Below, piece after piece: positions 1,957 to 64,000 of a stretch of 64,000 nt of DNA. The notes beneath the pieces are model-generated. The model saw only the letters and a program-made list of their open reading frames with translations, was not told the DNA's origin and made no database searches. The translations under genes and the position numbers were made by a program. How positions within the stretch are numbered: the stretch's first letter is position 1; each line of letters opens with the position of its first letter. The DNA comes from Algoriphagus sanaruensis (GTDB lineage Bacteria > Bacteroidota > Bacteroidia > Cytophagales > Cyclobacteriaceae), in assembly GCF_001593605.1 (NCBI RefSeq), contig NZ_CP012836.1, positions 2,422,501 to 2,486,500 of the forward strand, read 5' to 3'.

Positions 1957-2824
1957 AGTCAGGATTTCGATAAGCAGGATTTGGGTACGAATAGAATCCT
2001 TTCCCTGATTTTTCCCCCAATTTTCCCTCGTCAATGTATGTTTTTAAGAGTGCCGCAAAGGCTTGAGAAGCAGCATCTGGTAATTTATGGGTGACATGCC
2101 ATGCGGTATCTAATCCAATGGAGTCTAAGATTCCAAAAGGACCCATTGCCATGTGGAAATTAACCATCCAAGATTTATCGATGTCTTCAATACTTCCCAC
2201 TTCTCGAGTCAAAAGTTTCCCTGCTGCTCCAATTAATGCCATCAGCATGGTATTGAATATGTAGCCAGGATTTTCCTTTTTAACCAAAACAGGTACCTGA
2301 TTCAATTTTCTTCCTAATTCTTCCAACATGGGAATCATCACAGGGTCAGTTCCTGGATGGGGCATAATATCTACTACCCTAGAATAAAACACGTCATGAA
2401 AATGGAAAGCACAAAATTTAGCTGGCCGACCGCTTTCTTCAGCAAACATGGAGGGAAGGAGATAGGAAGTATTGGTGGTAAACCAAGTTTTTTCAGGTGC
2501 GATCTCTCCAAATTGCTTCCAGACTTTTTTCTTGATTTCGATCTCCTCAGTGACACTTTCATTGATCAAATCTGCATCTGCCACAGCTTCCTTGGCATCT
2601 AGGGTAAATTTAATTCTGGAAAAAATTGCTGAAATCTCGGTTTCAGAAATTTGCCCTGATTTCGCCAATTGCTTCACTATTTTCTCCATAGTTCGTTGGC
2701 TGAAATCCAAGGATTTTTGATGGATATCATACACTGTTACTGTGAATCCTGAAATGGCTGATTGAAGAGCTATGCGAGAACCCAAGGTTCCTGCTCCGAG
2801 TATACATATTTTCTTAATGGTCAT
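1946..2824 (-). CDS. 3-hydroxyacyl-CoA dehydrogenase family protein
   Basis: NAD-dependent dehydrogenase with an N-terminal Rossmann fold (GAGTLG, residues 10-15), a middle NTSYLLPS segment and a C-terminal helical domain with PGYIFN, where the Asn is the expected catalytic partner. The catalytic His region reads FHFHDVFYS instead of the common HFFNP, and the following Glu is replaced by Asp (VVDIMP). This is a diverged subgroup, so the substrate may not be an ordinary fatty acyl-CoA. It is the last gene of a four-gene minus-strand operon: its start lies 5 bases after the kinase stop. Length (292 residues) is normal for the short 3-hydroxybutyryl-CoA dehydrogenase type. Confidence 0.85.
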   Translation of the reverse strand: MTIKKICILGAGTLGSRIALQSAISGFTVTVYDIHQKSLDFSQRTMEKIVKQLAKSGQISETEISAIFSRIKFTLDAKEAVADADLINESVTEEIEIKKKVWKQFGEIAPEKTWFTTNTSYLLPSMFAEESGRPAKFCAFHFHDVFYSRVVDIMPHPGTDPVMIPMLEELGRKLNQVPVLVKKENPGYIFNTMLMALIGAAGKLLTREVGSIEDIDKSWMVNFHMAMGPFGILDSIGLDTAWHVTHKLPDAASQAFAALLKTYIDEGKLGEKSGKGFYSYPNPAYRNPDFIR

Positions 2825-2829
2825 TGTGG

Positions 2830-3858
2830 TTAAATTTTTTGAGTTTGAATTGAATTTTGGGCCATTTTACCGGCAGCTTCAACTACATGAATGAGCGCAG
2901 AAAAACGTGGATCTGACGCAAATCCTTGGCTGTATCGTTTGAATATTTGTTGCGCGATAACAGCGACTTTGAAAAGTCCGAAGACGTAGTAAAACACGAT
3001 ATCATCCAAGGAATGTCCTGTTTTTGACGCATAATATTCAATCACATCATTTCGAGTGAAATTACCTGGAAGATGACTCAGATTGAACATCTTAAGTATT
3101 TGTGGATCATCCGCTTGTGCCCAATAGGCTAAACTAGTTCCTAAATCCATTAAAGGATTGCCAATGGCCGCCATTTCCCAGTCCAAGACAGCTTTAATAG
3201 CTGTTTTCTGGTCTGGGTCAAGGACCAAATTGTCATACTTGAAATCATTGTGAATAAAGCCGACTGGTTCGGAAGTAGGAAGGTAAGCTTTCAGCCATTC
3301 CGCTGTTTTTTCTATTTCTGTCAGCTCATGAGTTTTGGATTTGAAGTATCGTTCAGACCAACCTTCCACTTGTCGTTTGGCGTAGCCATCGGGTTTTCCA
3401 AGCTGTATAAGGCCTGAATTTTCAAGTTCTAAACCATGAAGTTCAATCAAACAATCCAAGCTGTTTTTGGAAAGTTGATGAAAATCCTCCTCAGTTAAAT
3501 TGAATCCATCGGGAATTTTATTCCGCAAGACATATCCTTCCACGAATTCCATAAGAAAAAAAGAAGCTCCAAAAACAGACTCTTCATCACAGAATAAAAC
3601 CGGCCTTGGGCTTTTGGAATAGTCTGCTTTTTGAAGACTTTCTAAAATCCGATATTCCCGACCCATATCATGTGCCTTGGCAATCTTTTCCCCAAATGGA
3701 GGTCTTCGTAAGATCAGTTTCTCTCCCGGAGTTTCCACCAAAAAAGTCAAATTGGAATAGCCACCGGATAATTGCGAAACCTTGATCTGATCCGAACTAC
3801 AAGAGAGCGGGGTTTCCAAGTAGGATTTTAGGGATTCAAAGCTTAATTCAGTTTTCAT
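2830..3858 (-). CDS. APH-like phosphotransferase (ACAD10/11-kinase or LvaA type)
   Basis: Protein-kinase-fold small-molecule kinase. It has the catalytic loop HNDFKYDN (H203, D205, N210) and the metal-binding DWE at D226, with an N-terminal ATP lobe containing GGYSNLTF. It belongs to the aminoglycoside-phosphotransferase family, but its partner is the adjacent acyl-CoA dehydrogenase, with which it overlaps by four bases (ATGA). Known relatives are the kinase half of vertebrate ACAD10/ACAD11 and Pseudomonas LvaA, which phosphorylate the 4-hydroxyl of 4-hydroxyacyl-CoAs. That function is inferred here from context. It is not an antibiotic resistance gene on this evidence. Confidence 0.85.
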   Translation of the reverse strand: MKTELSFESLKSYLETPLSCSSDQIKVSQLSGGYSNLTFLVETPGEKLILRRPPFGEKIAKAHDMGREYRILESLQKADYSKSPRPVLFCDEESVFGASFFLMEFVEGYVLRNKIPDGFNLTEEDFHQLSKNSLDCLIELHGLELENSGLIQLGKPDGYAKRQVEGWSERYFKSKTHELTEIEKTAEWLKAYLPTSEPVGFIHNDFKYDNLVLDPDQKTAIKAVLDWEMAAIGNPLMDLGTSLAYWAQADDPQILKMFNLSHLPGNFTRNDVIEYYASKTGHSLDDIVFYYVFGLFKVAVIAQQIFKRYSQGFASDPRFSALIHVVEAAGKMAQNSIQTQKI

Positions 3859-5063
3859 TTCCCTAGGTAATTTTTTAGAATACTTCTAGCCAAGGCAGAT
3901 TTGTGGACTTCATCTGGACCATCATAGATTCTTGCCCCACGCTCATGTCTATACCAAAATGAAAGTAGCGTGTCATCTGTAATTCCGAGTGCTCCATGAA
4001 CTTGAATCGCTCGATCGATAACTTTCATCAATACATCGGCTACAAAGAATTTTATGGTGGAAATGTCCTCCTTGACTGCCTTCGCTCCAAGTGCTTGCAT
4101 TTGAGTTGCCGTATCCATTACCATCAAACGACTTGCTTTGATTTCTGCTTTACTTTCTGCAATCCAGTTCTGAATGGTTTGTTTCTCAGCTAATGGTTTT
4201 TCTGGGTCCAATTTTCGAGAAATGGCACGTTTGCACATTAAATCAAAAACTCGTTCGCATATTCCTATCCATCGCATGCAGTGATGAATTCGACCTGGTC
4301 CAAGTCTTTCTTGTGCCAGCGCAAAACCTTGGCCTTCCTTTCCAATAAGGTTGGTAACAGGTACTCTACAATTCACGAATTCTACCTCACCGTGAGAAAG
4401 GTAATCCTCACCGGCTTCCCCCATGATGGGAATGTTTCGAATTAATCGGTATCCCGGATTGTCCAAAGGGACAAGAATCATACTGGCTCGCTGGTAGGGG
4501 GAATCCGCTTCTGGATTGGTCACCGCCATGACGATGGTAAACTTGGCCCCATCTGCAGCAGTCGTAAACCATTTATGCCCATTGATGACATATTCATTGC
4601 CTTCTTTAATGGCAGTTGTTCCTAGATGGATAGGATTGCTTCCCGGCATGGCTGGCTCGGTCATGGCAAAGCAGGAACGGAGTTCGCCTTTTTGAAGGGG
4701 GGCGAGCCAAATTTGCTTTTGTTCCTCTGACCCAAAAAGATGAAGCAATTCCATGTTTCCGATATCTGGGGCAGCACAGTTGAACACGTAATGTCCAATT
4801 GGGCTTTGTCCTAGAATCTCAGAAACTTGAGCAAACTGAACGAGATTCAAACCAACTCCTCCGTCCTCTTTTGAAAGGTGAGGAGCAAAAATTCCTAATG
4901 ATTTGGCTTTATTTCTAAGTGTCTCAAGTTGAGGAAGAAATGATCGAAAGGGACCTTGAACAACTTTAAGATCAATTGGGAATAATTCTTCGCTAACAAA
5001 TTGACGGTATTGACTAAGTAGGGCAGGAAGGTGTTCCTGCGGGAAATTTTGGGTAGAATGCAT
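3855..5063 (-). CDS. Acyl-CoA dehydrogenase, ACAD10/11 or LvaC type
   Basis: FAD flavoprotein of 402 residues with the FAD-contact segment CFAMTEPAMPGSNP and the C-terminal signature VHGALGITDD. The C-terminal catalytic tract reads RIYDGPDEVH, so Asp381 occupies the place of the usual Glu base (IYEGT). This replacement, as I recall, is seen in ACAD10/11-like proteins that take phosphorylated 4-hydroxyacyl-CoA instead of doing plain dehydrogenation. The gene is translationally coupled to the downstream kinase gene (4-base overlap) and starts 9 bases after the SDR stop. The precise substrate cannot be read from sequence. Confidence 0.88.
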   Translation of the reverse strand: MHSTQNFPQEHLPALLSQYRQFVSEELFPIDLKVVQGPFRSFLPQLETLRNKAKSLGIFAPHLSKEDGGVGLNLVQFAQVSEILGQSPIGHYVFNCAAPDIGNMELLHLFGSEEQKQIWLAPLQKGELRSCFAMTEPAMPGSNPIHLGTTAIKEGNEYVINGHKWFTTAADGAKFTIVMAVTNPEADSPYQRASMILVPLDNPGYRLIRNIPIMGEAGEDYLSHGEVEFVNCRVPVTNLIGKEGQGFALAQERLGPGRIHHCMRWIGICERVFDLMCKRAISRKLDPEKPLAEKQTIQNWIAESKAEIKASRLMVMDTATQMQALGAKAVKEDISTIKFFVADVLMKVIDRAIQVHGALGITDDTLLSFWYRHERGARIYDGPDEVHKSALARSILKNYLGK

Positions 5064-56196: not shown

Positions 56197-56526
56197 TCAA
56201 TCTTCAAAAACCAGCTCCCGACTTGAAGTCAATTTGATTTTCCGAGCCACCGAAAGGCCCGAAAAGTCGCCAATCAGTCGGTAGTCTATTTGTCGAATGG
56301 AAAATTGATTTCTCAAGGCCAATAAGAATTCACCTCGTGCTGCAGTCCATCCGGAATTTCCTACTTCCTGATTAAATCGATCAATCAGCTCTTGATCAGA
56401 AAGCCGCAGGAGGTTTACGGTAAAATAGGATACGTTCATAATTGTCAATTTTTCAAAGAGTGGATAATTCAAATCTGTCCATACTTTCCAGCTTGGCAGA
56501 TTTGAGTATTTCGATCGAAATGGCAT
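56197..56526 (-). CDS. Unknown protein D of a compact four-gene operon
   Basis: 109 residues from ATG 56526; a second start at 56439 (MNVSYFTVNLL) would give 80 residues and is equally plausible. The visible core is LSDQELIDRFNQEVG then GWTAARGEFLLALRNQFSIRQID, a helical domain I do not recognise. No signal peptide. It follows gene C with a two-base gap and is the last gene of the cluster; the stop codon is 20 bases from the convergent lipoprotein gene's stop. Confidence 0.6.
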   Translation of the reverse strand: MPFRSKYSNLPSWKVWTDLNYPLFEKLTIMNVSYFTVNLLRLSDQELIDRFNQEVGNSGWTAARGEFLLALRNQFSIRQIDYRLIGDFSGLSVARKIKLTSSRELVFED

Positions 56527-56528
56527 TT

Positions 56529-56963
56529 CTATTTAAAATAATGCCGGACATTCATTCCGATGATTTCGTGGCTTTGGGTCACCAAAGTTCCCCCGCTTGG
56601 AATCGTCGAACTGGTATAAGCTTGTCCATCAAAGATGTAATAGCCCATTTCTGGGCCTTCCACCAAGCAAAGTCTGGCAGGACGCTTTAACTGTGCTTCC
56701 AGTTGGTCTTTCACTTGATGCGTTCGCTCAATCAAAAGCTCATGAACTTTGGAATACTTGTCGATTTCATACAATGCCAGCATCCAAGGCTCAACTCCTT
56801 CGAGTTGAATTCCACCAGATTCAGTGGACTCCTTTTCGTCCAACTGAATGGGAAGCTGCATATACACCCCACTGGTAATCCGCACGATGAGGTAGGGAAA
56901 TATTCCGTATCCTGCAGGGAATTTTCGGAATTCAGACCAAGGAATTGATTTATCGAGGTTCAT
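56529..56963 (-). CDS. Unknown protein C of a compact four-gene operon
   Basis: 144 residues from ATG 56963; upstream frame to 57083 lies in gene B and is ignored. Opens MNLDKSIPWSEFRKFPAG and has a beta-rich pattern (YLIVRITSGVYMQLPIQL) and a helix with EAQLKRPARLCL. No signal peptide, membrane segment or family I can name. It overlaps gene B by 14 bases. Confidence 0.62.
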   Translation of the reverse strand: MNLDKSIPWSEFRKFPAGYGIFPYLIVRITSGVYMQLPIQLDEKESTESGGIQLEGVEPWMLALYEIDKYSKVHELLIERTHQVKDQLEAQLKRPARLCLVEGPEMGYYIFDGQAYTSSTIPSGGTLVTQSHEIIGMNVRHYFK

Positions 56964-57165
56964 TGCTGTCTTTTTTAGGGCGGATGACCCGCACGGTAAA
57001 ATTGGATTTCTGGTATTTTTTATCCTCGGGCTTAGCCCAAGGACGCCTGCAGAAGATTTGCTCTGCACATTCTTTTTCCACAATCAGATGCGCATAGGCA
57101 CTGAGCGGAACAGCCAAATCTTCGAAGGTGACTTCGAAAAGGATGCGATCTCGGATTAAAGCCAT
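56950..57165 (-). CDS. Unknown protein B of a compact four-gene operon
   Basis: 71 residues starting MALIRDRILFEVTFEDLA, with three Cys (EKECAEQIFC) in the middle and a basic Lys/Arg tail (RVIRPKKDSNEPR). Small soluble protein; no family. It lies three bases from gene A and overlaps gene C, which places the four genes in one transcript. Confidence 0.6.
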   Translation of the reverse strand: MALIRDRILFEVTFEDLAVPLSAYAHLIVEKECAEQIFCRRPWAKPEDKKYQKSNFTVRVIRPKKDSNEPR

Positions 57166-57168
57166 GAC

Positions 57169-57537
57169 TCAGGAGTTTAAGGAAAAGTGCGTGATCTTTT
57201 GTATCGGTAAACTCGAATCAAAGGGCAAAAGCAAAACCTGCTGGCTTTGTGCCACAATTCCAAAGCTTCCGGGAGCAGTTCCCAAACTGAGACTAGCGCC
57301 CAGATACTGCTTGCTTTCATCGAAATGCAGCAAGACATAGGGAGTAACCCCACTGAGATCCACCTGGGTAGTCAGGAGGGAATGGGTAAACTGAATCAAG
57401 ACGGCATCCTGCTGGGTGATCCAATCTTGAGCCCGAAGGGAAGTGTGTGGATATTCCACCTGAAGGATTGAGAAAGTCTGGGGAGGATGCTCCCGAAAGT
57501 GCAGGATCAGCTCCTGCTGCGTAGTGAAAATGGACAT
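57169..57537 (-). CDS. Unknown protein A of a compact four-gene operon
   Basis: 122 residues, beta-rich, opening MSIFTTQQELILHFREHPP; later GASLSLGTAPGSFGIV and QQVLLLPFDSSLP. No signal peptide and no family I recognise. It is the first gene of the cluster; immediately upstream are an inverted repeat GTTTAA-GG-TTAAAC (57548-57561) and a GC-richer unassigned stretch. Confidence 0.62.
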   Translation of the reverse strand: MSIFTTQQELILHFREHPPQTFSILQVEYPHTSLRAQDWITQQDAVLIQFTHSLLTTQVDLSGVTPYVLLHFDESKQYLGASLSLGTAPGSFGIVAQSQQVLLLPFDSSLPIQKITHFSLNS

Positions 57538-57849
57538 GATAACATGCGTTTAAGGTTAAACATGGTTATCACCAAGAAGAAAGCGGGGGAGATGCAGGTA
57601 AACATTTTTGGTCTGCAATGACCCTCATCGATGGACCACCGTGGTGTTTGACTCGGTTGGTATCAGCCATGCTGATTCTTGATGATGCCCAAAGGTAAGT
57701 TTATGCTCAGTGGAAAAGCAAGAGGGGAGAATAAAAATGGCAGAGATTGTCGGGGAGGGAGATAATGAGATTATTGGACTCAAAATTCATCTTAATGCTT
57801 TGGTAGTTTTAATTTGATTTTGACATATTCGAAAATTAGTTTTTGAAGA
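57538..57849. other. Unassigned 312-base intergenic region with inverted repeats
   Basis: Contains GTTTAA-GG-TTAAAC at 57548-57561, ACCAC-C-GTGGT at 57635-57645 and ATCAGC-CAT-GCTGAT at 57662-57676. It is locally GC-richer than the surroundings. At the right edge is a candidate promoter for the HNH gene. I see no gene. Confidence 0.4.
57814..57845 (+). promoter_or_regulatory. Candidate promoter of the HNH gene
   Basis: TTG (57814-57816), 20 bases, then TAGTTTTTG (57837-57845), one T longer than TAnnTTTG; the ATG is 5 bases further, giving an almost leaderless transcript. Confidence 0.4.
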
Positions 57850-58800
57850 ATGACTATTGAGCAAATTGCTGCATCGTTTTTTAAGGTTAAAAGAGCCTCA
57901 ACATCTTACGGAATGGCTCCGCATAAACCAATTTTATTGCTTTCTCTTTTGGACTTGATGGATTCGGGTGAATCATTGAATAATCAGTTCATTGTAAATG
58001 CTGATTTGGTAGCTGCATTTCATGAGAATTGGTCACTTTTAGTTTTTACGGGCCATACAGAGGATTTTACTCAACCATTTTATTATCTCCAAAATGATAA
58101 AATAGGAGGTAAAAATTTTTGGAAACTCCAACCAAAGGTTGGGTATTCAATTAATTCTCACATAAAAAGTATCCAAGTTCTTTCTGATGTTCTTCAATAT
58201 GGTACCTTTTCCGATGAGGTTTTTCTAGAATTAATAGAACCAAAAAATCGGATGGTTCTAAGAGAATTACTTCTTAATCATTTTTTTCCTGGCTATAAGA
58301 GTGGATATTTTTCTAATAAAAAATCAGAGAACGCCTATCTTAAAAGCATTGATAGTTATGTATTGAATCAAACCGATAAGGTTCAAAGACTACAAGTTGC
58401 AGAGGAAGAGTGGGGTTATGTCAGGAGTAGTACCTTCAAAAAATGGGTTCCTAGAGTTTATCAAAATACATGTGCCATATCTCGAATGAAATTGGTTTCT
58501 ACTTTTGGGTATTCTTTAATTGATGCATGTCATATCCGTCCATTTTCCGATAATCAAGATGATCGTGTAACCAATGGAATTGCGCTATGCCCTAACCTCC
58601 ATCGTGCGTTTGACAGGGGCCTGATTAGTATAGACCAAGAGTATAAAGTATTGGTTACTGATCAAATTCAAGAAGATAAATCAAATCCTTATGGACTTGA
58701 AAATTTAAAAGGGAGAAAGATTTTGTTACCAGCTGAAAAGCATCTTTGGCCAGATCAGGAAAATTTGGAATGGCATAGGGGAAATCGGTTTTCAACATAA
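57850..58800 (+). CDS. McrA-type HNH endonuclease with APHKP N-terminal domain
   Basis: 316 residues. The C-terminal nuclease is a textbook HNH: Cys208 (CAIS), His228 in ACHIRPFS, Asn242 in VTNGIAL and His251 in NLHRAFDRGLI. The N-terminal domain has GMAPHKPILLLSL at 21-33, the motif I associate with phosphorothioate-DNA-sensing (ScoMcrA-like) type IV restriction enzymes; that assignment is from memory. No dnd modification genes are present. It converges with the helicase-nuclease fusion, stop codons 9 bases apart. Probable defence nuclease. Confidence 0.85.
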   Translation: MTIEQIAASFFKVKRASTSYGMAPHKPILLLSLLDLMDSGESLNNQFIVNADLVAAFHENWSLLVFTGHTEDFTQPFYYLQNDKIGGKNFWKLQPKVGYSINSHIKSIQVLSDVLQYGTFSDEVFLELIEPKNRMVLRELLLNHFFPGYKSGYFSNKKSENAYLKSIDSYVLNQTDKVQRLQVAEEEWGYVRSSTFKKWVPRVYQNTCAISRMKLVSTFGYSLIDACHIRPFSDNQDDRVTNGIALCPNLHRAFDRGLISIDQEYKVLVTDQIQEDKSNPYGLENLKGRKILLPAEKHLWPDQENLEWHRGNRFST

Positions 58801-58809
58801 AAGCAATTT

Positions 58810-60789
58810 TCAGTTTAAAATGGGTAAACCGATTGACTTAAAATATTCAAATGTATTATCATAAAATTCTGGGTTCCTTGTATGATCATCAGGATTACCT
58901 TCCGGAACTAGAATGATCATTCCTTTTCTTGCTCGGGTTAAAAGGACTCTATAGGCGTTAATTAAATACTTTTGCCTTTCTTCTTTGTTGATTTTTTGCC
59001 ATTTGTTCCCTTTAAATGAAAAAGATTTCCAGCCAGAATTGGAATATCTTAAGTCCCCATCCCAAGTAACACAAGCCCAATCAAGTTCAAGACCTTGAAC
59101 TTGGAATTCTGTAGCAACATCTTCCAAAAAATAGGATGAGCGAATATCATCTTTACCATTTAGAAACCAATGAACAGGGTTAATTGGCGATTTAACATCA
59201 ATAGCCAAAGGCTTTAATCTATAGGCCTGCGAAGAAACTACAATTCCATATCTTTCAGATCCTCTAGCTTTTTCTTTAATCCATTTTTTTGCAGTATCAA
59301 TAGATCTTGTGATTGCTATTGGATATTGATTTTGAAAACTTTTTAATGTTTGTTTCGATTCAATTTTATTTAGATCTAAAAGCTGTTTTACAAATAATGA
59401 AAGCTTTTCGGCTCTTATTGATCGCATAGAAACACCCAAATGCAAATCAGGATTAAAGACTACTTTGCATTCATTTTTTAATTCAAGAATCGAATCCATT
59501 GCGTCATATTCTGAATCAAAAAGGTGAGGAGAAATATGTGTTTCCCAATCTTTGAACTTTGTTTTTACTGCTTTAATCCATTCAGAAATTCCTGCTTCTC
59601 CAGTATTAATTTCTTGGCCCCCGCCGACTAAGCAAACAATTACAGCCCAGTCTTTATGCCTATTCAAGCATGAAATCAGAAATTCTGGTTCTGAAGAATC
59701 AAATCCTATTATTCCTTTTTTCCTAGCCATGAAATTAACTGTCTGTTCTTTTGTCCAAGCTCTTTGAGCTTCGTCAAAAATAGCTACATGATCATAGGGG
59801 GCCGATTGATCTCTGAGGTATTCGTCCCTGTAGTGGTGAATTATCTGTATAAATGATTTTACTCCTTTTAAAGCTTCATTTTTTGTGATTCGATTTCCCT
59901 TTGATTTTTCTTGTTCTACTTTATCTCTAGCTAAAGCTTCTTGTAAAACTGCTACTAAAGGACCATTTCCAGATAAATAAACACTTGAATCACCTAGTTC
60001 TTTATCCAAATGATCTGTGGCTACTTTTAATCCTACTAGCGTTTTACCTGCTCCAGGAACTCCAGTAACAAAACAAATTATCTTTTTCCCCAAAGTTTTA
60101 GCAATTCTGATTTGGTCAGAAATGTAGGTTGTGGTTTGATTAAGATTTTTAGCATCTGAATCACTTTTCGTTATCTCCTCTACTGTATGATTTTTGTACA
60201 AACTAACTGCTGCTTCAATAATGGTAGGGATAGGTTGATAACTACCCTTGACATAGGAACTGTCAATTGTTTTTTCTTCATTACCAAGTAATTCTAAGGC
60301 CTTATCTATTGTTATTTTGAGATCCTTTGAATTTGTTCTTACAGGTTTAAATAGAAAATCATTATGGGAGGTGGTTTCAAATTCAATAACTGAATTGGAC
60401 GCATTTGTTGCAATTAGAATCGGAATCAGAACTGACTCATGGCTAGGCTGATGAAAACTTTTTAAATCAAGTGCATAATCCCAAACTTGTTCGATATTAT
60501 GGTTTAGATAATTCTGTTCTCCAACCTTGAATTCAAGAATAAAAACAAGGTTTTTAATTAAGAGAAGACAATCAATTCTTTTTCCCATTCTTGGGACTGA
60601 AAACTCAAAAAATAAGTAGCCATCTTTTTCAGTTAAGGCTTCCTTCAGAATTTTAATCTGATTTTCCCATGCAAAAATTTCATTTTGGTTATTTCCAAAT
60701 TGATTTGTTAGTGCAATTTCTCCAATTATTGACTCATTACTTTTCCTCAAAAAAAGGCTTATTGGATCACTGTAATAAAAATTAAGCAT
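58810..60789 (-). CDS. PD-(D/E)XK nuclease-DUF2075 helicase fusion
   Basis: 659 residues. The N-terminal part (about 35-130) has an R-x-D (Arg71-Asp73) and E-F-K (Glu86-Lys88) pattern followed by a Q..WDY helix (Gln101-Tyr105), the core of PD-(D/E)XK nucleases. The C-terminal 430 residues are a DUF2075/Schlafen-group-like SF1 helicase: Walker A GVPGAGKT at 243-250, Walker B VAIFDEAQ at 335-342, CLVGGGQEIN, and late motifs QGLELDWACVTW and YRVLLTRARKGMI. It begins 30 bases after smc with no terminator between them, so it is probably read through from smc. Candidate anti-invader protein. Confidence 0.85.
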   Translation of the reverse strand: MLNFYYSDPISLFLRKSNESIIGEIALTNQFGNNQNEIFAWENQIKILKEALTEKDGYLFFEFSVPRMGKRIDCLLLIKNLVFILEFKVGEQNYLNHNIEQVWDYALDLKSFHQPSHESVLIPILIATNASNSVIEFETTSHNDFLFKPVRTNSKDLKITIDKALELLGNEEKTIDSSYVKGSYQPIPTIIEAAVSLYKNHTVEEITKSDSDAKNLNQTTTYISDQIRIAKTLGKKIICFVTGVPGAGKTLVGLKVATDHLDKELGDSSVYLSGNGPLVAVLQEALARDKVEQEKSKGNRITKNEALKGVKSFIQIIHHYRDEYLRDQSAPYDHVAIFDEAQRAWTKEQTVNFMARKKGIIGFDSSEPEFLISCLNRHKDWAVIVCLVGGGQEINTGEAGISEWIKAVKTKFKDWETHISPHLFDSEYDAMDSILELKNECKVVFNPDLHLGVSMRSIRAEKLSLFVKQLLDLNKIESKQTLKSFQNQYPIAITRSIDTAKKWIKEKARGSERYGIVVSSQAYRLKPLAIDVKSPINPVHWFLNGKDDIRSSYFLEDVATEFQVQGLELDWACVTWDGDLRYSNSGWKSFSFKGNKWQKINKEERQKYLINAYRVLLTRARKGMIILVPEGNPDDHTRNPEFYDNTFEYFKSIGLPILN

Positions 60790-60819
60790 TAATTAAAAGT
60801 TGGATTACAATTTTTATTT

Positions 60820-63800
60820 CTACGCCATCTCCCTCAAATCCACCGGAACTACCCTTGATACCCCCGCTTCGATCATCGTTACTCCGTAGATAATATCTGT
60901 GCTGGCCATGGTGCGCTTGTTGTGCGTCACGATAATAAACTGGCTCTCGGAGCTAAACTTTTGGATAATCTGGTTGAACTTATCAATGTTTGCATCGTCC
61001 AGCGGAGCGTCCACTTCGTCGAAAATACAGAAAGGAGCTGGCTTCAGCAGATAGATGGAAAAGAGTAGGGAAGTGGCAGTCAGGGTCTTTTCACCCCCGC
61101 TCAGTTGGTTGATCGTCAAAGGTCGTTTGCCCTTAGGCTTAGCCATAATCTCGATCGGAGATTCCAGGGGATTTTCCGGATCGACCAAAGTCAGGTCACA
61201 GTCATCCTGCTCGGTAAATAGGGAGCGGAAGACCTTGACAAAGTTTTCCTTGATCTTGGCAAAGGCATCCAAGAAGGTCTCCTTGGCCACTTGATCAATT
61301 TCTGAAATGGTATTTAAAAGGCCTTCCTTGGCCTGAATCAGGTCGTTTTTCTGGGTGCTGATAAAATCAAATCGCTGCTTGATTTCATCATACGCCTCCA
61401 TGGCCATTGGGTTGATCGGGCCGATTTTCTCCAATCGTTCCTTTTGCTTGCGCACCAGTTCCCGGAGTTCCTCTTCCCCAAATTCCTCAAATTCCGGATC
61501 CAAGTTGGGATTTTCATCCATCACCTGGTCCAAGTGGAGTTCAAACTCCACGCTGAGTCGCTCCTTCATCCCGCTCATTTTGAGCTTGATTTCATTGATC
61601 GTCTGGTGAAGCTCCTGAATCAACTGATCAAAGGCTTCCTTGGCTTTTTGCAAGCTTCGGATTCGAGTATCCGTCTCGTCAATCAGTCCACGGGCGCCGT
61701 AATAGTCCTTTTCAGCCTCATTGACTCCACGTTCGATACTTTCCTTTTCGGCATAGAGCTCGATCAGTTCGTCGTCCTTGATTTCGTTGTTTTCTAGCAG
61801 GGTTTTGATTTCCGCATCGAGCTGCCCAAGTTCGGCCTGAGACTTTTCGATTCGCTCTTTGGAACTGTCAAAGGCATTTTGCTTAAACTCAATCTCTTGC
61901 TCCAGGCTATTGACCCGGTTGACCTGCTGGATATAGGTGATATTTTCCTGGTTGAAGGATTGGGACTTTTCAGAAAGCGCCTTGTTTTCGAGTTCCACCT
62001 CTTCCTGCAATAGACTTACCTGATCGGTCAAGCCTTCAAATTCGGCTTTTTCCCCTTCCAAGTTGGGAAGGATCTCGGTGAGACTTTCTTCCAAACTCGC
62101 AATTCGGTCCAAAATATCTTCCCGCTTGTTGGCATTGGAGCTAAGCAGCTCTGCGAGTTGTTCCTTTTTGGTTCGGATCGAGACAAAGCCAGAGTTCAAT
62201 TCATTGATCTTAGCCTGGCTTTGCTCCAAGGCGGCTTTGTAGGACACCTCTTTGAGTTTGAGGAGGTCGCTGAGTTTTTGATCCAAATTGGAACGGGTGG
62301 TGCTGACTTTTTTGCTCAGGTCCTTGATCTCCCGATCGAGCTTTTCGAGGTTTTTGGCCCGCCCGATTCGCTTTCCTTCAAATAGACCCACCGAACCTCC
62401 GGAAATGGAGAATTTGCGCTTGGTGTATTTGCCTGTTTCGGAAAGGAAAATGCAATCAGGATCCTGCGGAAAATCCTTGTAATCCCCCTGCACGAGGTAG
62501 ACATTGTCCAGGATAAAATTGATCAGACGGCTGTATTTTACATCGAATTCGATGATCTCCGTAGCCGCAATTGCATTGGCGAAAAGCTTGCTTTGGCTCG
62601 GCTTGAATCGCTCAAAATTCTCCAGCACAAAGAAATTGGCCTTTCCTCGGGCTGCATCACTGAGCAACTGGATCGCAGCAATGGCCTCTGCCTCGGTGTC
62701 GACTACATAGTAGTTCATGTAGGTTTCGAGGTAGTTTTCGATCGTGACCCGGTACTTTTCATCCGTGGTCAACAAGTCGGAAAGGAGAGGGACATCTTTG
62801 CCCCAGGTGCTGTTTTTCTTAAGAAACTTGATAGCTTCTGGAAAGCCTTCCAGATTCTCCACCAAGGATTTGGTCAGGTTAAATTCATTGGTTTTCGAAT
62901 CCAACTTACGAGAAGAAGTCGTCAGCTCCTCTCGGATCATTTCGATGACCCGATTGGTTTCCTCGATCTTTTGATCTTGATCTTCCTGCTTGGATTTCAG
63001 TAGCTGAAATTCCGCACTTGCCTCATCCAGTTGGCTTTTGAGCTCCACCATCTTTTCTTCAAACTCCACCAAATTGGCTTCCTGAGAAGAATCATCCGAT
63101 GAAGTTCGCTCCAATTCCTGCTTGAGCGTGCTGAGCTGAATCTGCTTGATTTCAACCTCCTTTCCGAGTTGGTACACCCGATCTTTCAATCGATCAAAGC
63201 GAAGACTTACTTCTTTAAGTGCTTGCGTCTTTTCCGAAGCGACCAACTTTTGGGCATCGTATTCTTCCCGAAGCTGGGAGACGATCACCTCTTTTTCATT
63301 GAGTATTTTCTCAGCCGATTCCCGCTCTTGTTGCAAAGAGCGAATTGAGAATCCAGCCCGATCGTTGGACTTTCTGTCCGTGTCGATTTGCTCACGGAGT
63401 TTTTGGGATCGGTCTTCTAAAAATCGAAGTCGCTCATTTTTGATTTTTTTCTCCGATTCGAAGGCACGGATTTTATTAACATGCTCATTTAAGGTCTTCT
63501 GACGAGAAGAGAGCAGCTTTTCCTTATGAATCAAATCCGCCTTCAATTGCTCCAATTGGGCTTCCTGATCCGCCATTTGAGCCTGAACCTGGAGTTTGCG
63601 ATCTGATTCGGATTGAATTTTGGCATTCGCCTCGAGGAGGGATTGTGCATATTTTTCGATGGACTTCTTGGCGAGGTTGATGCTTGCCTTTCGGTAGTCT
63701 TCCTTGATTTCGAAGTATTTGGCGGCTTGTTTCGCCTGCTTTTCCAGGGACTTGAGGTTTTTATCGATCTCGTAAAGGAGATCTTCCACCCGAGCTAAAT

Positions 63801-64000
63801 CCGCATCGGTGTCTTCGAGTTTGCGGAGCGTTTCTTTTTTCCGGTTTTTAAACTTGGAGATTCCGGCAGCCTCCTCAAAAAGTTCGCGGCGTGAGTTGTT
63901 CTTGTCATTGAGCAACTCATCGATCATTTTAAGTTCGATGATTGCGTAGGAATTGGAGTTGATTCCCGTGTCCATAAAGAGATTGGTAATGTCCTTGAGG
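60820..64000 (-). CDS. smc: Chromosome segregation ATPase SMC, N-terminus beyond the window
   Basis: Partial gene covering the C-terminal ~1060 residues. Reading continues through the window edge (LKDITNLFMDTGINS), so the N-terminal P-loop is outside. The remaining N-terminal part (KMIDELLNDKNNS, EEAAGISKFKNRK) is the family's conserved region; two long coiled coils flank a hinge (about residues 375-540 of the visible part). The C-terminal head has the ABC signature LSGGEKTLTA and Walker B CIFDEVDAPLDD. It compacts and segregates chromosomal DNA. Confidence 0.96.
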   Translation of the reverse strand, partial: LKDITNLFMDTGINSNSYAIIELKMIDELLNDKNNSRRELFEEAAGISKFKNRKKETLRKLEDTDADLARVEDLLYEIDKNLKSLEKQAKQAAKYFEIKEDYRKASINLAKKSIEKYAQSLLEANAKIQSESDRKLQVQAQMADQEAQLEQLKADLIHKEKLLSSRQKTLNEHVNKIRAFESEKKIKNERLRFLEDRSQKLREQIDTDRKSNDRAGFSIRSLQQERESAEKILNEKEVIVSQLREEYDAQKLVASEKTQALKEVSLRFDRLKDRVYQLGKEVEIKQIQLSTLKQELERTSSDDSSQEANLVEFEEKMVELKSQLDEASAEFQLLKSKQEDQDQKIEETNRVIEMIREELTTSSRKLDSKTNEFNLTKSLVENLEGFPEAIKFLKKNSTWGKDVPLLSDLLTTDEKYRVTIENYLETYMNYYVVDTEAEAIAAIQLLSDAARGKANFFVLENFERFKPSQSKLFANAIAATEIIEFDVKYSRLINFILDNVYLVQGDYKDFPQDPDCIFLSETGKYTKRKFSISGGSVGLFEGKRIGRAKNLEKLDREIKDLSKKVSTTRSNLDQKLSDLLKLKEVSYKAALEQSQAKINELNSGFVSIRTKKEQLAELLSSNANKREDILDRIASLEESLTEILPNLEGEKAEFEGLTDQVSLLQEEVELENKALSEKSQSFNQENITYIQQVNRVNSLEQEIEFKQNAFDSSKERIEKSQAELGQLDAEIKTLLENNEIKDDELIELYAEKESIERGVNEAEKDYYGARGLIDETDTRIRSLQKAKEAFDQLIQELHQTINEIKLKMSGMKERLSVEFELHLDQVMDENPNLDPEFEEFGEEELRELVRKQKERLEKIGPINPMAMEAYDEIKQRFDFISTQKNDLIQAKEGLLNTISEIDQVAKETFLDAFAKIKENFVKVFRSLFTEQDDCDLTLVDPENPLESPIEIMAKPKGKRPLTINQLSGGEKTLTATSLLFSIYLLKPAPFCIFDEVDAPLDDANIDKFNQIIQKFSSESQFIIVTHNKRTMASTDIIYGVTMIEAGVSRVVPVDLREMA

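Follow-up and report, generated by a model that had tools for sequence, protein, structure and literature searches.

A convergent HNH endonuclease gene and PDC-S41 nuclease-helicase gene beside smc in Algoriphagus sanaruensis are probably separate cargo of a hypervariable site

In the 64,000-nucleotide stretch of Algoriphagus sanaruensis DNA analysed here (hereafter the window), which is part of a single 3.88 Mb contig, two restriction-type genes converge beside smc. Do they make up a two-part defence system, or have they come to lie side by side by accident? The first (57850..58800, + strand) codes for a 316-residue protein with a sulfur-binding-domain (SBD)-like region and an HNH nuclease domain, and the second (58810..60789, - strand) for a 659-residue nuclease-helicase of the PDC-S41 type. 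Both open reading frames (ORFs) are intact, and only nine bases (58801..58809) separate their stop codons. The nuclease-helicase gene adjoins smc (60820..63975, - strand), which runs off the window edge. An initial annotation of this DNA had described the same layout and proposed a candidate defence module, while cautioning that the pairing might be accidental. We consider it likely that the two genes are independent cargo, i.e. stand-alone restriction-type genes that reached a hypervariable site directly 3' of smc in separate events. Both enzymes are of already catalogued anti-virus kinds, and it is improbable that their adjacency amounts to a new two-part defence system.

Co-occurrence of the two genes

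Searches of three overlapping genome samples showed that only the window's genome carries both genes. The helicase was found in 6 and the HNH gene in 40 of the 148 genomes of the family sample (E 1e-3), and in 7 and 4, respectively, of the 72 genomes of the genus sample (E 1e-50). In the class sample, the corresponding figures were 16/395 (E 1e-100) and 25/395 (E 1e-45). With the window's genome removed from the latter sample, 15 and 24 of 394 genomes remain, so that approximately 0.9 genomes would be expected to harbour both genes, and none was seen.

The gene neighbourhoods gave a similar picture. No HNH relative was present near the helicase in any of 40 neighbourhoods (stretches of 4.9-20 kb, some of them on contigs that break off ~1 kb or less from one side of the helicase); these represent 40 of the 42 other carriers, G163 and G336 being left out as fragmentary matches. 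A helicase lies near the HNH gene in 1 of 80 HNH loci (L076, in Parapedobacter soli). These 80 are the best of 257, and 69 span 12 kb or more. In the one-per-locus grouping, the HNH gene was recognised as one cluster in 79/80 loci. The HNH protein of another locus, L203, was not counted, as its C-terminal part alone clusters with that of the window and its ORF lacks the APHKP region.

Side-by-side recurrence of the two genes across genomes was thus not found (0/40, 1/80), and, with no joint carriers besides the window's genome in the three samples, we rejected the view that the two genes generally form a conserved convergent module. The initial annotation had held that its proposal would fall if homologues of the two genes almost never co-occurred, which is largely what we observed, the residual case being that of Parapedobacter soli; its caution about an accidental pairing is upheld. 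The helicase is by itself already a PADLOC candidate (PDC-S41). We also rejected a named two-gene defence system, since PADLOC labels single genes only; the annotation, too, had recognised no such system.

A hypervariable site 3' of smc

An smc match was found in 64 other genomes of the genus, and in 60 of these (all but G535, G516, G547 and G543) we mapped the region 3' of the gene. A group of reduced genomes shares one gene order there; in the others, gene content differs between genomes. Each gene cluster is limited to at most 12 of the 61 loci, and the one most often found close to smc occurs in 11, with two members matching PDC-S22. In a control with 20 genomes, 55/139 ORFs on the 5' side of smc, but 0/114 on its 3' side, recurred in 10 or more of the other 19. 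smc is thus the fixed flank of a hypervariable site.

Each of the two genes is found at this site without the other. In two of the six other helicase carriers of the genus, G518 (88%, same strand) and G369 (47%, opposite strand), the helicase lies directly 3' of smc, with no HNH gene. Reciprocally, an HNH gene (57%) is found 3' of smc without the helicase in G509, one of the three other HNH carriers of the genus. The DNA of G518 matches positions 58824-63996 of the window in one piece (78.4%), and the match stops at the 3' end of the helicase gene, indicating that the latter belongs to a block shared with smc and that the HNH gene is an extra here, either gained in this genome or lost in G518.

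By comparison with nearby genes, positions 57750..60810 form a segment of low guanine plus cytosine (GC) content, with 34.8% for the HNH gene and 33.2% for the helicase gene, compared with 47.0% for smc, 41-49% for other nearby genes and 39.8% for the whole window. Because the site is variable, each gene is found there alone and both have a low GC content, their meeting at one insertion site would be an ordinary event.

To describe the cargo of the site, we scanned all 164 ORFs chosen from 47 loci (up to four per locus) with PADLOC, leaving out 12 loci from reduced genomes or too short, and one devoid of a 150-residue ORF. Among the 25 commonest families per set are restriction, methylase and specificity subunits of type I systems, type II methylases that also match DrmMII, type IV enzymes, PDC-S05, S20, S22, S41, PifA and others. 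The site 3' of smc offers a place to seek further restriction and defence genes in the genus.

Evidence for a linked pair

Several observations weigh against separate placement. Locus L076, a 7.1-kb contig of Parapedobacter soli, holds a helicase gene (1965-3944) and an HNH gene (3941-4900) in the same direction with a 4-base overlap; its PDC-S41 protein scores 953.5 bits. A NUDIX gene (PDC-S07) lying upstream in the opposite orientation completes a trio (L076:1310-4900) with a GC content of 48-52% between flanks of ~40%. In the protein searches, P0001 and P0127 are both on contigs of 4451 bases, and P0024 and P0136 both on contigs of 18195 bases; as the contigs are equal in size, the members of each pair are probably on the same contig, which suggests two more linked pairs. 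The about equal low GC of the two window genes would also fit joint import. Lastly, of 19 single site ORFs selected manually, one from each of 19 loci (the first or second in its list), just 7 match PADLOC at E 1e-10 (2/10 and 5/9), implying that the site is mixed and not purely defensive.

The idea of a module therefore survives via this tandem pair and the two suspected same-contig pairs. In a true two-component restriction module, the SBD-HNH protein would sense modified DNA and the PDC-S41 protein would degrade it. Such a scheme is also in line with the neighbours of other SBD-HNH genes, with a SauUSI-like protein in 13/80, a NUDIX-cluster gene in 14/80 and both in 7/80 loci. We nevertheless deem it unlikely, given the neighbourhood counts (0/40, 1/80), the absence of joint carriers among the 394 other genomes of the class sample where ~0.9 were expected, the fact that convergent genes are not co-transcribed, and the case of G518, which has the helicase in this position but no HNH gene. 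A terminator scan gave no candidate in the nine-base gap between the two genes, and one weak candidate within the HNH gene (58681-58700, - strand).

The HNH protein

The HNH protein consists of an SBD-like region (residues 1-158) and an HNH nuclease domain (residues ~190-316), with H228, N242 and H251 assigned by eye as the motif residues. Its N-terminus is modelled with a sulfur-binding-domain fold, in which H25, K26 and P76 align with the equivalent H, K and P residues of SBD-Hga, without variation across 18 aligned sequences. The corresponding codons are found at 57922..57930 (H25-K26-P27) and 58072..58080 (Q75-P76-F77), both on the + strand. Counterparts of the ScoMcrA pocket residues H116, R/K117 and P165 are thus kept; going by the roles given in part of PMC6224610, H25 and K26 are predicted to form the wall of the sulfur pocket and P76, equivalent to P165, its floor. 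The resemblance of the N-terminus to phosphorothioate (PT)-sensing type IV enzymes, which the initial annotation had pointed out for the APHKP motif, is thus supported. Lack of the sulfur-recognition pocket, which would have counted against the annotation's proposal, is not what we observed, as the pocket positions that are conserved best are present. The motif KPzzLL...PF-L-W, ascribed to EcoWI homologues in the portion of PMC7461809 at hand, is present as well (K26-P27-I28-L29-L30, P76-F77, L80 and W91).

In its SBD fold, HK and P pocket residues, motif, C-terminal HNH domain and lack of an SRA domain among its Pfam matches, the protein is like EcoWI and SprMcrA, whereas ScoMcrA is an SBD-HNH enzyme with an added SRA domain. 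By analogy with EcoWI and SprMcrA, its N-terminal domain would most likely read the sulfur of PT-modified incoming DNA and its HNH domain would cut nearby. Host DNA would be spared because no Dnd-type PT DNA is made: DndC has no match in the genome, in a search whose control, run on 14 named genomes, was positive in five but in no case exceeded the cutoff, and which did not cover Ssp-type PT genes. With the same restriction as to Ssp-type genes, a DndABCDE system in this genome was rejected.

Other features speak against PT dependence. The protein differs from SBD-HNH PT enzymes by a Q in place of Y at the pocket lid and by lacking CxxC, a motif described for EcoWI homologues in the same part of PMC7461809; its only three cysteines are at positions 208, 227 and 247. 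It scores 95.9 bits with NF045808, the NCBIfam model for PT restriction, below the curated cutoff of 180 bits, and we therefore describe it as working like the SBD-HNH family without filing it in NF045808. The enzyme might then read another modification, or be a type II nuclease bereft of its methylase partner. Consistent with the latter, PADLOC profile PDLC03546, labelled 'Type II restriction enzyme', matches the protein with 45.3 bits. Furthermore, a gene reading by eye as a C5 methylase is found within ~6 kb in 9/80 relatives, five of them in Sphingobacterium, and a Vsr-type gene within ~6 kb in 7/80, all in Sphingobacterium, that of L039 being the one scanned. However, the SBD fold and the pocket H, K and P are kept. 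As to the replaced positions Y164 and A168 of ScoMcrA (Q75 and Y79 here), the excerpt of PMC6224610 reports Y164 in just 7/23 SBD homologues and tolerance to change at A168. Finally, no C5 methylase (PF00145) match was found in the window's genome, with a control positive in 10 of 14 named genomes, and we rejected a cognate methylase on this basis. All in all, a target other than PT seems improbable, and PT dependence of the HNH enzyme moderately likely. It would represent a Bacteroidota member of the SBD-HNH enzymes, a little-studied class amenable to testing, and its host genome has no DndC match.

In four Sphingobacterium loci (L039, L042, L045 and L057), the Vsr-type gene is on the other strand at the 3' side of the HNH gene, and the gene reading by eye as a C5 methylase is 1.7-5.5 kb from the HNH start, a layout as in a restriction-modification cassette. 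In one member of the taxonomic family (G078:C11:14375-15293), a relative of the HNH gene is split into two pieces, with a stop in each.

The nuclease-helicase

The second protein matches the PADLOC profile PDLC05014 (PDC-S41) over its full length, with 926.7 bits (residues 1-658, profile positions 1-653 of 657). Its Schlafen-group-3 helicase domain (DUF2075, PF09848) scores 276.8 bits against a Pfam gathering cutoff of 24 bits and harbours a Walker A motif, GVPGAGKT (243-250), and a Walker B motif, FDEAQ (338-342). In the model of the N-terminal domain, D73, E86 and K88 are on core strands of a PD-(D/E)XK fold. The fusion of PD-(D/E)XK and DUF2075 domains recognised in the initial annotation is thus borne out. 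The N-terminal model has a likeness, in fold only, to Can2, Cdn1 and VC1899, which we take to be PD-(D/E)XK nucleases. As the full-length model gave a poor match list, the structure search was used solely for the N-terminal domain and the motor. Among solved structures, phmmer found no match by sequence, and profile searches gave four weak ones (best E 0.047).

PDC-S41 is catalogued in PADLOC as a phage defence candidate; the window's member adjoins smc and converges with an HNH gene. SauUSI-type enzymes are similarly single-chain nuclease-helicases, but they are built as PLDc-helicase-DUF3427, whereas the window protein combines PD-(D/E)XK with a PF09848 motor, and neither PLDc nor DUF3427 was among its Pfam matches (up to E 0.1). 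It most likely acts as a nucleoside triphosphate (NTP)-driven translocase feeding foreign DNA to its own nuclease domain. PT binding by the HNH protein, cleavage, translocation and any effect on phage or plasmids are what we infer. The helicase likewise belongs to a little-studied class amenable to testing, as a PADLOC candidate whose nuclease-helicase architecture is clear.

Literature searches found no paper on PDC-S41, none joining DUF2075, HNH and defense, and none for an Algoriphagus defense island; no paper listed by a broader search on Schlafen group 3 contains that phrase, and the available portions of PMC12839542 and PMC6299218 contain nothing on a helicase of this type.

Some nuclease-helicase fusions act in DNA repair, and the lack of a paper on PDC-S41 leaves room for such a role. 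Its distribution argues otherwise: with the window's genome included, the helicase is found in 6/148 and 22/390 genomes (E 1e-3), 7/72 (E 1e-50) and 16/395 (E 1e-100), and also in four plasmid records. Together with its low GC content and its listing as a defence candidate, this patchiness makes a repair enzyme very improbable.

Two plasmids of Persicobacter sp. JZB09 (L283 and L284) each carry a PDC-S41 relative (49.8% identity), with no HNH gene in the stretch examined around the helicase; their records bear no annotation. In viral contigs, we found a single partial helicase and two relatives of the HNH gene (35% and 43%), none of them paired, and carriage of the pair on viruses was rejected. 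A family of small proteins (up to 189 residues) adjoins the helicase in 13/42 loci (L159, L160, L161, L195-L199 and others); a similar small protein without a Pfam match is found in the smc site of G442 (L203:11778-12341).

Recurring neighbours of SBD-HNH genes

The SauUSI-like neighbours mentioned above harbour PLDc, ResIII and DUF3427 domains and are encoded at most 6 kb from the SBD-HNH gene. The neighbour counts are based on BLAST grouping, with the L041 and L076 proteins the only ones scanned. That of L041 (L041:6691-10951) matches PADLOC mREase_IV with 775.8 bits. SauUSI is an ATP-dependent enzyme that cuts 5-methylcytosine-containing DNA, according to part of PMC3874153. In L076, PDC-S41 occupies the place of the SauUSI-like nuclease-helicase beside the NUDIX and HNH genes. 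The sections of PMC10853773 at hand describe HKD-SF2 helicases and SBD(wHTH)-SRA-HNH proteins as nucleases associated with the genes for Dnd modification; the main text of that paper contains none of the terms NUDIX, Schlafen and DUF3427.

These recurring neighbours and the position of PDC-S41 in L076 led us to a conjecture that we hold to be quite doubtful, namely that SBD-HNH enzymes act together with NTP-driven nuclease-helicases that can stand in for one another: a SauUSI-like one in a number of Bacteroidota, and PDC-S41 in Parapedobacter soli and in the window. The SBD-HNH enzyme would mark or nick PT-modified invading DNA, the nuclease-helicase would destroy it, and the window layout would be a rearranged copy. 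A search for a SauUSI-like partner elsewhere in the window's genome found none, but it had no positive control and shows little. The question raised by this recurring neighbourhood could be answered directly with the Parapedobacter soli pair.

On its other side, the HNH gene adjoins an operon (56197-57537). Relatives of the products of two of its genes (57169-57537 and 56529-57083) are encoded next to each other in G130 (L226), approximately 8.6-9.5 kb 3' of smc.
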